The translations under genes were made by a program, and so were the position numbers. From Aquisalimonas lutea (GTDB lineage Bacteria > Pseudomonadota > Gammaproteobacteria > Nitrococcales > Aquisalimonadaceae): 64,000 nt of DNA. Positions 57,028 through 60,285 of this stretch are shown one piece after another (position 1 is the stretch's first letter; each line of letters starts with the position of its first letter). The notes below the pieces were generated by a model, which ran no database searches, had not been told where the DNA came from, and saw only the letters and a program-made list of their open reading frames with translations. Location of the stretch: contig NZ_JAUFPK010000004.1 in NCBI RefSeq assembly GCF_030409225.1, positions 387,792 to 451,791 of the forward strand, read 5' to 3'.

Positions 57028-57092
57028 GGTTTCGCCCTCGTGTGCCGGTTGCAGGTTGCAATTATGCCATAGCCACAACGCAGGACATGATG

Positions 57093-58172
57093 ATGAACGA
57101 GACATCCCGGACGCCGCCGAGCATCCAGTGGTCCGCCCTGCTCGCGCCGCAGAAGCCGCGCTTCGGCGATGACGGCGCGCTGCTGGACTTCGGCGACGCC
57201 GACGGCGAGCTGCACACGGTCCTCGGCGACGGCGGTGTCATGCCCCTGCCGGGCAGCGGCCTCATCCGGGTGGTCGGCGACGACGCCGCCGCCTTCCTGC
57301 AGGCGCAGCTCAGCGAGAGCGTGGCCGATCAGGGTACGGATGAATGGCGCCTGGCGGGGCTGTGCAACCCCAAGGGGCGCCTTCTCGGGCTGTTCCGCGT
57401 GCTGCGCCTCGATGACGACGACTTCCTGCTGCTCACCGACGGCAGCCTCGTCGAGGGGCTGGTGCAGCGGCTGCGCATGTACGTGCTCCGCTCCCGGGTC
57501 GCCCTCCAGGACTTCACGCCCCACGGCGGGGTCTGGGGCGCCGCCGGCTCGGGTGCCGCCGCCCTCACCCAGGTGGCGGGCACGCTGCCCCAGGGCACCG
57601 GCACCGCCGTGCATGCCGGTGACACCACGGTGCTGAACCTCGGCGGCGAGCCGGAGCGCTTCCTCGCCGTCGCCCACGCCCGCGATGCCGAGGGGCTGTG
57701 GAGCACGCTGACCGATGCCTCCCGCCCGGTCACCCCGACCGGCTGGACCCTGCTGGGCATCCGCGCCGGCGAGCCGGAGGTCACCGCCGCCACGCGGGAG
57801 CGGTTCGTCCCGCAGCAGGTCAACCTCGAGCTCATCGGCGGCATCAGCTTCCAGAAGGGCTGCTACCCGGGCCAGGAGGTCATTGCCCGCATGCACTACC
57901 GGGGCAAGCCGAGCCGGCGCATGTTCGGGCTGACCGCGCCGGCGGGCAGCGTCCCCTCACCCGGCGACAGCGTGCTCACCGCCGACGGCGCCTCCGCCGG
58001 CGAGGTGGTCCGGGCCGTGGCCGGCCCCGCGGGCACCGAGGCGCTGGCCGTTCTGCGCGTGCAGTACCACGGCCGCCAGGACCTGCGCCTGGGCGACCAG
58101 CCCGCCGGCTTCGCCCAGCTCCCCTACGACGTCCCGCTGCCGACGGAAGAGGAAGCGACGGACGACTCGTAG
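57093..58172 (+). CDS. ygfZ: Folate-dependent iron-sulfur repair protein YgfZ
   Basis: YgfZ helps maintain some Fe-S enzymes. It has the family signature KGCYPGQEVIARMHYRG with the conserved Cys, then GDSVLTADGASAGEVVRAV near the end. The glycine cleavage T-protein-like fold spans the protein. ATG at 57093 (third of three consecutive ATG codons) has AGGA seven bases upstream. It is 359 residues. It is divergent from the SDHAF4-type gene, 65 bases away, so Fe-S and flavin assembly genes lie together here. Confidence 0.92.
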   Translation: MNETSRTPPSIQWSALLAPQKPRFGDDGALLDFGDADGELHTVLGDGGVMPLPGSGLIRVVGDDAAAFLQAQLSESVADQGTDEWRLAGLCNPKGRLLGLFRVLRLDDDDFLLLTDGSLVEGLVQRLRMYVLRSRVALQDFTPHGGVWGAAGSGAAALTQVAGTLPQGTGTAVHAGDTTVLNLGGEPERFLAVAHARDAEGLWSTLTDASRPVTPTGWTLLGIRAGEPEVTAATRERFVPQQVNLELIGGISFQKGCYPGQEVIARMHYRGKPSRRMFGLTAPAGSVPSPGDSVLTADGASAGEVVRAVAGPAGTEALAVLRVQYHGRQDLRLGDQPAGFAQLPYDVPLPTEEEATDDS

Positions 58173-58212
58173 ACCGGCACATGCCCGGGGTGCGAACGCG
58201 GCTTGCGGATGG

Positions 58213-58443
58213 GTCGGTGGTTGGCGGGGGTGTGTTGGGGTGGGCTCCGGAGCTCCGCTTACGGTACCCGGCTTCGGTTGAAGCCGGGTACCTATCCTGC
58301 GCTCCGGCCTGGCCGAGCGACAGCACGTCCCTGTGCTGACGCTCGGTTGCTTCATCCCTGAAGCAACCCCTCCGGGGCCGAGCGGCCTACGCTCCGGCGC
58401 TGCGCAAGTCGCCCACCCCAACACACCCCCGCCGACCACCGAC
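58213..58443 (+). repeat. Structured repeat element A (MITE/REP-like)
   Basis: Its ends, 58213-58244 and 58412-58443, are 32-bp inverted repeats with one mismatch. Inside are hairpins: HP1 at 58263-58292 (13-bp stem, GGTT loop), HP2 at 58315-58344 (12-bp stem with an A-A mismatch, loop GTCCCT), and HP3 at 58345-58368 (9-bp stem, loop ATCCCT). CCCC-TCC-GGGG follows. No coding capacity is seen. Confidence 0.85.
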
Positions 58444-58536
58444 GTCCAACCGGAAAGTATCGGGCATTCCTACACGCCGAACTCCGACACCACACGCAGG
58501 TGCAACGTTTCGAAGGCACCATTACGCTTCGATACC

Positions 58537-58753
58537 GGTCCGCGTCCGGTGGCGGGATTGGGGTTGGGTGACTTTGCGTAGCGCCGGAGCGCAGGGCGAC
58601 CGGCCCCGAAGGGGTGGCGGCAGGGATGCCGCCACCGGCTGTCAGCACAGGGATGTGCTGTCAGCCGGCCAGCCCGGAGCGGAGGGTAGGAAGCTCTGCT
58701 TCCGTAAGCGGAGCTCCGGAACCCAACCCCAATCCCGCCACCGGACACGGACC
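58537..58753 (-). repeat. Structured repeat element B (MITE/REP-like), inverted relative to A
   Basis: Its ends, 58537-58569 and 58721-58753, are 33-bp inverted repeats with one mismatch; 26 bp of these are perfect. Hairpins on the minus strand are HP1 (58689-58703, 6-bp stem), HP2 (58637-58666, same 12-bp plan with the A-A mismatch) and HP3 (58613-58636), the latter two with loop ATCCCT. It is homologous to element A in core order. Confidence 0.85.
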
Positions 58754-58785
58754 CATCCGCAAGCCGTACGCTTCCCCTCCTCAGG

Positions 58786-60285
58786 TTACCCTTCCGGCCT
58801 CATGGCAGGGAACAACAGGACATCGCGGATGGAGGCCTGGTCGGCGAAGAGCATGATCAGGCGGTCGATGCCGATGCCCTCACCCGCCGTGGGCGGCAGG
58901 CCGTACTCCAGGGCGCGGATGTAATCGGCATCGTAGTGCATGGCCTCCTGGTCGCCGGCGTCCTTGTCCGCCGCCTGGGCGCGGAAGCGCTCGGCCTGGT
59001 CCTCGGCGTCGTTGAGCTCGGAGAAGCCATTGGCCATCTCGCGGCCGCAGATGAACAGCTCGAAGCGCTCCGTGACGAACGGCTCGTCGTCCTTGGGCCG
59101 CGCCAGCGGCGAGACTTCCTTGGGATAGTCGATGATGAAGGTGGGCTCGCGCAGCTGGTGCTCCACCGTCTCCTCGAACAGGGTCACCTGCAGCTTGCCG
59201 AGGCCGCCGTTGTCATCCACGGCGACGCCGAGGCGATCCGCCACCGCCCGGGCACGGGCGGGGTCGTCCAGCTCCTCGGCGCTGACGCCCGGGTTGTAGC
59301 GGACGACGGCGTCGCGCAGCGACAGCCGCGGGAAGGGCTTGCCGAAATCCACCGCCTCGCCCTGCCACTCCATCTCCGGCGTCCCCTTGAGCTCCACGGC
59401 CAGCTCGCGCAGCAGCTCCTCGGTCAGGTCCATGAGATCGTGGTAGTCCGCGTAGGCCTGGTAGAACTCCAGCATGGTGAACTCGGGGTTGTGCCGCGTG
59501 GACACGCCCTCGTTGCGGAAATTGCGGTTGATCTCGTAGACCTGCTCGAAGCCGCCCACCACCAGGCGCTTGAGGAACAGCTCCGGGGCGATGCGCAGGT
59601 ACAGCGGGATATCCAGCGCGTTGTGGTGGGTGACGAACGGCCGCGCCGCCGCGCCGCCCGGGATCTGCTGCATCATCGGCGTTTCCACTTCAAGAAAACG
59701 CCGTAGGTTCAGGAAATCCCTGATGAACTGAATGACCCGGCTGCGCACTCGGAAGACGTCGCGCACTTCCGGGTTCACGATCAGGTCCAGGTAGCGCTGC
59801 CGGTACCGCGCTTCCTGGTCGGCCAGGCCGTGGTACTTCTCGGGCAGCGGGCGCAGGGACTTGGTCAGCAGGACCAGGCGCTCGACCCTCACCGAGAGCT
59901 CACCCTTGCGGGTACGGAACAGCGTGCCCTCGGCGCCGACGATGTCGCCCAGGTCCCATTTCTTGAACTCCTGGTACTGGCCCTCGGGCAGGGCATCGCG
60001 CTGGAGATGGAGCTGGATGGAGCCGGTCATGTCCTGCAGGCTCGCGAAGCTGGCCTTGCCCATGACCCGCTTGGCCATCATGCGCCCCGCCACCCGCACG
60101 CGGATGCCTTCCGCCTCCAGGGTGTCGTTGTCCTGGTCGTCGTGGGCGGCGTGCAGGTCCGCGGCGAAGGCATCCCGGCGGAAGTCGTTGGGGAAGGCCC
60201 CGCCGCTGTCCCGCCAGGCGCGGAGCTTCTCGCGCCGCTGGGCGATGAGCTTGTTGTCGTCGGTCTCCGCAGTTTCCTTGCTCAC
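58786..60285 (-). CDS. lysS: Lysyl-tRNA synthetase (class II)
   Basis: LysS charges tRNA-Lys. It has an N-terminal OB fold ([20 protein letters not shown] around residues 46-65), motif 1 near [10 protein letters not shown], motif 2 [20 protein letters not shown], and motif 3 with [13 protein letters not shown]. It is 499 residues, as in E. coli. It follows prfB by 19 bases, the same order as in E. coli. Its 3' end lies 20 bases from the inverted repeats. Confidence 0.97.

Follow-up and report, generated by a model that had tools for sequence, protein, structure and literature searches.

The window, a 64,000-nt stretch of the Aquisalimonas lutea genome, contains two structured elements, A and B, between the convergent open reading frames 57042–58172 (plus strand) and 58786–60285 (minus strand). 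The plus-strand frame has a KGCYPGQE motif, which we take to be typical of YgfZ, and the minus-strand frame reads like a lysyl-tRNA synthetase. The two elements are inverted relative to each other and form a compound unit at 58199–58766. Its 17-bp inverted outer ends (CGGCTTGCGGATGGGTC and GACCCATCCGCAAGCCG), reported correctly in a preliminary description of this DNA, sit within a 32-bp inverted pair at 58199–58230 and 58735–58766.

The putative RNA strand is the minus strand in element A (58213–58443) and the plus strand in element B (58537–58753). The closing stem of A is formed by an arm at 58213–58245 and its partner at 58411–58443, and that of B by arms at 58537–58569 and 58721–58753. 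Each stem spans 33 bp, of which 32 are paired and one is mismatched (97% complementary), in agreement with the coordinates and inverted ends given for A and B in the preliminary description. Two adjacent hairpins, designated a and b, lie inside each stem. In A, hairpin a (58345–58368, minus strand; formerly HP3) has the loop AGGGAT at 58354–58359, and hairpin b (58315–58344, minus strand; formerly HP2) has the loop AGGGAC at 58327–58332, 27 nt away. In B, hairpin a (58613–58636, plus strand; loop 58622–58627) and hairpin b (58637–58666, plus strand; loop 58649–58654) both carry AGGGAT, again 27 nt apart. A variable hairpin of A (58263–58292; formerly HP1) is absent or different in other copies. 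Both elements are far more stable than their shuffled sequences, with z values of −14.8 (A) and −12.1 (B), and none of 200 shuffles equalled either.

The preliminary description had noted compensatory differences between A and B, and these are real. The stem ends of HP2 are GAGCG/CGCTC in A and GGCTG/CAGCC in B, and those of HP3 are GGTTGCTTC/GAAGCAACC and GGTGGCGGC/GCCGCCACC. The strand that appears relevant, however, is opposite to the one it had used, and on it both conserved hairpins have A-N-G-G-A-Y hexaloops. The loops described as GTCCCT and ATCCCT are present and read AGGGAC and AGGGAT, and the A–A mismatch, which also exists, is a T–T mismatch. In 51 aligned copies this mismatch is T–T in 33, C–T in 16, and A–T in 2, indicating that the right-hand T is kept.

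The proposed selection on a folded structure is borne out by covariation. The named structure was paired in 98.6% of the alignment cells, and double changes occurred in 22 of its 42 pairs. Its covariation score was 0.281, compared with 0.072 in shuffles, and none of 500 shuffles scored as high. Six slid versions of the structure all scored far below the real one, a control that favours the structure because the rows are related and the structure was drawn from their consensus. Departures from Watson–Crick pairing were counted on the ANGGA strand, within the five pairs nearest the loop in each stem, over 175 distinct dual hairpins drawn from every taxon collected; 11 were G·U, 2 were A·C, and 28 were others (p = 0.022 for G·U versus A·C in a small test with partly related rows). 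An excess of G·U is what selection on the ANGGA strand as RNA predicts.

In the alignment (A1), the N of the loop is G, T, C, or A, and the last base is T or C; the invariance of A and GGA there arises by construction because the copies were found by their loops. An invariance count independent of the loop search came from 46 loci found by DNA similarity (L001–L046, some of which overlap). On the strand opposite to A, every one of them has a pair of A-N-GGA-[T/C] hairpins with a spacing of exactly 27 nt. The commonest N in the genus of the window is G rather than Y. As judged by reading sequences from other genera, one hairpin has been lost in L311, the second stem of L321 is weak, and the last loop base is A or G in some copies.

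The elements belong to a dispersed family. A DNA search of the genome of the window (G000) gave 33 places, with arm fragments excluded, and a pattern search gave 32 exact matches there and none in the reversed control. The preliminary description had suggested searching for other copies with a covariance model, and a model built from 51 copies matched 33 places in G000, 17 in G002, 8 in G001, 3 in G003, and 4 in G004; one of the 33 is an internally deleted copy (C12:78707–78796). The preliminary description had named a lack of further copies and of covariation as grounds for taking A and B to be a chance local duplication; copy number and covariation reject that reading. Outside the genus, the model matched 11 places in G029, 6 in G020, and 4 in G034, with weak matches in G037 and G007 (2 each) and in G005 and G040 (1 each). 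At an E-value of 0.01, 12 of 54 genomes of the order had a match, whereas DNA similarity alone detected the family in 5 of 59 genomes including its own, that is, in the genus only. Mean core identity was 0.90 within G000 and 0.82 between G000 and G002. Concerted evolution of the core was considered but is not proposed here, as the orthologue comparisons were mixed (identity 0.80 to 0.99).

Close inverted pairs such as A/B recur in the family, for example L002/L020 and L023/L029. The outer end GGCTTGCGGNNGGGTC occurs exactly at seven places in the genome; six adjoin copies by coordinates, and the seventh lies approximately 200 bp from the internally deleted copy. Allowing one mismatch added 5 places, compared with 4 for the reversed control. 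These ends are inverted on both sides in the window pair and in the L023/L029 pair, where one end carries one mismatch. A second dispersed repeat of approximately 120 bp is present at more than 10 places in G000, including C1:112794–113030, 1976703–1976835, 184194–184316, and 741079–741201. Several of these places adjoin copies of the element, and two coincide with the sub-threshold RF01731 matches of this genome described below.

Relatives beyond the genus were collected with a two-loop pattern of 28-nt spacing, which matched at least 118 GTDB stretches, mostly labelled as Gammaproteobacteria. Because the spacing in the genus is 27 nt, this pattern gives no match in G000 and finds relatives alone. 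Among the matches listed, the first-hairpin stem had at least 4 bp in 127 of 138, and some records held many copies. Such elements are patchy, since in an even sample of the class the strict 28-nt pattern was found in 5 of 369 genomes (control, 0). A looser pattern matched in nine genomes out of ten (reversed control, 1 match across all ten): Parathalassolituus penaei had 151 matches, G000 32, a Granulosicoccaceae MAG 21, a Ctena symbiont MAG 11, G002 6, G004 4, G001 3, G003 2, Rheinheimera 2, and Arsukibacterium 0.

The Rfam family TwoAYGGAY (RF01731) is the closest described structure. Its model passed the cut-off at the pattern-matched element itself in L057 (Parathalassolituus) and in L278 and L281 (Ctena symbiont), and at a neighbouring place in L071 (Sinimarinibacterium) and L269 (Granulosicoccaceae MAG), the latter place being itself a dual hairpin. 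The cut-off was not reached in 25 of the 30 sources scanned, which were relatives or congeners. At A and B, no match was found at the gathering score of 43 bits, and none was listed up to an E-value of 5, in a listing that omitted one lower-scoring same-clan overlap. Two places in G000 other than A and B gave sub-threshold matches (31.2 and 28.5 bits). Because A and B score below the gathering score, we call them TwoAYGGAY-like and not members. Both features on which the likeness rests, two adjacent hairpins with AYGGAY-type loops and an external stem enclosing them, are present in A and B. By our reading of the sequences, the window copies are set apart from TwoAYGGAY by an additional hairpin (CCCC/GGGG) and by a variable hairpin between loop 2 and the arm. 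Their 27-nt loop spacing differs from the 28 nt of most relatives collected.

TwoAYGGAY is predicted to bind CsrA and its external stem is not well conserved, according to Gardner and Eldai (PMC4333381), and it is listed for human gut, Gammaproteobacteria, and Clostridiales in a table of PMC2864571. The RF01731 matches and this prior CsrA proposal mean that the kind of element is known in outline. In the open-access articles searched, we found no description of TwoAYGGAY as dispersed repeats with locus-specific stems. Two further observations concern the relatives. In several taxa (L052, L071, L147, L167, L316, and L319), the dual-hairpin element is followed downstream by a similar hairpin with the form TTTTGGTTACTTTT...AAAAGTGAC or GGTTCCTTTTC...GAAAAGGAAC; no such hairpin was seen at the window copies. 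In a Chromatiales MAG (L159:2870–3160), two tandem dual-hairpin units adjoin repeated partial tRNA 5′ ends and sit just upstream of an intact tRNA gene.

CsrB, RsmY, RsmZ, and RsmW are each encoded by a separate sRNA gene that has its own promoter and terminator. The elements resemble them in having GGA loops within hairpins, but differ in that they are interspersed, in dozens of copies that each carry two sites; a simple consensus search turned up neither a promoter nor a terminator at A/B. The RsmW model, from the Rfam clan that also contains RF01731 (CL00106), scored weakly on B (21.7 bits; cut-off 52). The RsmZ model (RF00166) had no match in G000, but it was also above its cut-off in none of 14 control genomes. 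Matches of Rfam miRNA families in the window were far below their cut-offs and were discarded.

The hairpin loops agree with the known form of CsrA sites. According to a review of CsrA (PMC7652899), the RsmE site is an ANGGAN hexaloop in which A and GGA are contacted and N is variable, the SELEX consensus is RUACARGGAUGU, and one dimer bridges sites 10–63 nt apart. The ANGGAN hexaloops of the window elements, at 27 nt, lie within this bridgeable distance, and hairpin b of B (CAGCACAGGGATGTGCTG) contains ACAGGGATGT. The csrA gene is present in all five congeneric genomes. We consider it reasonably likely, judging from sequence, that A and B are dispersed TwoAYGGAY-like structured RNA-type elements presenting two CsrA-type hairpins, and we infer that such an element captures a CsrA dimer. 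Upon transcription of the minus strand of A or the plus strand of B, the arms would close a multi-branched RNA that presents the two ANGGAY hexaloop hairpins 27 nt apart, which one CsrA dimer could bridge. Dozens of copies together might act as a scattered CsrA decoy; alternatively, each copy may tether CsrA to transcripts running into it.

The closing arms, whose largely locus-specific character the preliminary description did not note, behave differently from the core. Arms of 25–44 bp were found in 53 of the 55 congeneric places with enough flank, counted by place (32/32 in G000 and 21/23 in congeners), and only the congeneric L040 and L042 lack paired arms. In these 53 copies, the arms average 33.8 bp with 29 mismatches in 1790 bp (98% paired). 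When left and right arms were combined across copies, 32 of 2756 combinations reached a score of 15, whereas the minimum for arms of the same copy was 22; random places reached 15 in none of 4921 cases. In 29 of the 30 G000 loci (L029, whose ends were not set, was left out), mean arm length is 34.5 bp and the two arms of a copy are 98.9% identical, whereas at equal distance from the core the arms of different copies are approximately 52% alike. A likeness above 70% was found in 32 of 406 copy pairs, and 23 of these are among L001, L003–L008, and L020, which points to one subfamily that spread with its arms. Many arms in G000 (e.g. 58213–58245) share a weak pattern: their G content is high on the side nearer the core, and quite a few start with GTCG or GTC approximately 33 bp out. 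Within the 64-kb window, exact inverted repeats with arms of at least 15 bp and a loop of at most 300 occur at A and B alone; with no other such repeat present there, the idea that the core had inserted into pre-existing long palindromes was rejected.

The arm mismatches comprise 12 G·U and 9 A·C and show no strand bias, so the arms may pair through DNA-level upkeep, transcription of both strands, or self-copying. Arm changes were read by eye in eight syntenic pairs. In L018/L039, seven positions changed in both arms alike and two in one arm, and L019/L035 shows a coupled C–G to G–C swap together with a coupled indel. One coupled change and one to three single ones were seen in each of L036/L228, L230/L234, and L039/L236, and none in L224/L233. 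The arms could not be aligned in L031/L024, in L020/L040, or between L026 and the first element of L039, and these pairs may be separate insertions. By reading sequences, we also observed coupled arm changes between near-identical copies in G029, while approximately 47 bp are paired in a weak relative from G037. In G029 (C1, approximately 338000–342290), one copy has a right arm that corresponds to the left arm of the following copy and not to its own partner (L307 and L308); this pattern resembles flank exchange by recombination between cores approximately 3.6 kb apart.

At a second locus (L043, L041, L044, L324, and L323), four congeners carry an element with unrelated arms in both orientations, and G004 has none. 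G002 and G003 have the element whole; in G001 a contig end truncates it, and in G000 most of it is deleted. Comparison of G003 with the empty spacer weakly suggests that both arms arrived with the insertion. The locus could be a hot spot, or the arms could have turned over completely.

These arm data bear on whether pairing of the arms is selected at all. Neutral copying, by template switching at a palindrome or by hairpin repair, could make the arms perfect by itself, an account that we regard as quite possible, if somewhat short of an even chance. It would fit arms that are near-perfect in each copy and little shared across copies, the absence of strand bias, and the coupled changes in orthologues and near-identical paralogues, including the C–G to G–C swap and the coupled indel. 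It fits less well with the single uncoupled changes that persist in orthologues, with the loss of paired arms in L040 and L042, and with the external stem that the related RF01731 also has. For the TwoAYGGAY-like element, we suppose that arm pairing is maintained by selection on structure, by copying of one arm from the other, or by both.

The copies are probably mobile, and the element would spread as a unit. At the ygfZ–lysS site, an A/B-type element is missing from all four congeners, although the spacers are too diverged to align, so the empty sites are not exactly definable. Inverted GTAGGG hairpin pairs, REPIN-like in appearance and differing in sequence between the two genomes, occupy this site in G001 and G002 (L171 and L172). 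REP/REPIN, ERIC, and similar repeats are dispersed, palindromic, mostly intergenic, and sometimes arranged as inverted pairs. The family resembles them in these features, and differs in that the outer stem varies among most copies whereas the inner core and loops are common. The preliminary description had proposed a MITE- or REP-like structured repeat family; the multi-copy part holds, REP-like is apt only insofar as the copies are dispersed palindromes, and the MITE label is a poor match, given that most copies differ in their terminal inverted repeats.

One could also regard the family as a mobile palindrome acting at the DNA level, MITE- or REP-like, whose structure and loops serve as substrates for a single-strand-hairpin transposase and whose likeness to CsrA sites is incidental. 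The dispersal of the copies, some as inverted pairs, the element-free site in the four congeners, the lack of strand bias in arm mismatches, and the lack of orientation preference relative to genes in G000 (see below) are in line with this account. We nevertheless consider it unlikely, because the arms differ in most copies, as the terminal inverted repeats that a transposase recognises do not, because the A and GGA of the loop are kept while N takes all four bases, which is the CsrA pattern, and because G·U departures outnumber A·C in the core.

The gene setting was examined with a rough ORF call. Among the 30 loci of G000, 11 are between convergent genes, 1 is between divergent genes, 2 have one neighbour uncalled, and 16 are between co-directional genes. 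In the last group, the ANGGA strand is antisense in 9 and sense in 7, and the two-loop strand is thus not oriented with the neighbouring genes. In other taxa, among the matches listed, 53 of 127 elements had both neighbours called; 21 are sense and 9 antisense to co-directional genes, 19 convergent, and 4 divergent. The preliminary description had suggested checking whether copies sit near convergent gene ends and had considered a bidirectional terminator; only 11 of the 30 loci are convergent, and the terminator idea lacks support. A function as such a terminator, or as a 3′-end stabiliser for convergent genes, appears very improbable to us. The position of A/B between convergent ORFs and the excess of convergent loci over the single divergent one would suit it; against it, a GC-rich hairpin followed by a T run was found nowhere in 58100–58850, including A and B, 16 of the 30 loci lie between co-directional genes, and a terminator would not account for paired ANGGAY loops whose spacing is fixed. 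A search with the sigma-70 consensus found no promoter-like sites near A/B.

The genomes thus contain a family of copies with a covarying core, a common loop pattern and spacing, and near-perfect but mostly differing arms, with gammaproteobacterial relatives and with csrA. A bolder reading of the TwoAYGGAY-like elements, which we put forward tentatively and hold to be rather doubtful, is a self-spreading class of CsrA-capturing RNA in Gammaproteobacteria with a few to approximately 150 copies per genome, in which insertions would carry a fresh, near-perfect, largely private stem (25–44 bp in the genus of the window). This reading would need a new means of making or renewing the stem, such as fold-back copying.

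CsrA is a global regulator that, in the best-known cases, is titrated by a small number of dedicated sRNAs. Should dozens to approximately 150 elements in a genome carry paired CsrA sites, the level of free CsrA and the fate of many transcripts could hinge on mobile repeats, and if the self-spreading reading is true, part of the buffering of the Csr network would sit in them. The arm behaviour of this TwoAYGGAY-like, CsrA-type family is unexplained, and near-perfect, mostly copy-specific stems of 25–44 bp demand a mechanism, whether selection on structure, self-correction of palindromes, or a new kind of insertion.
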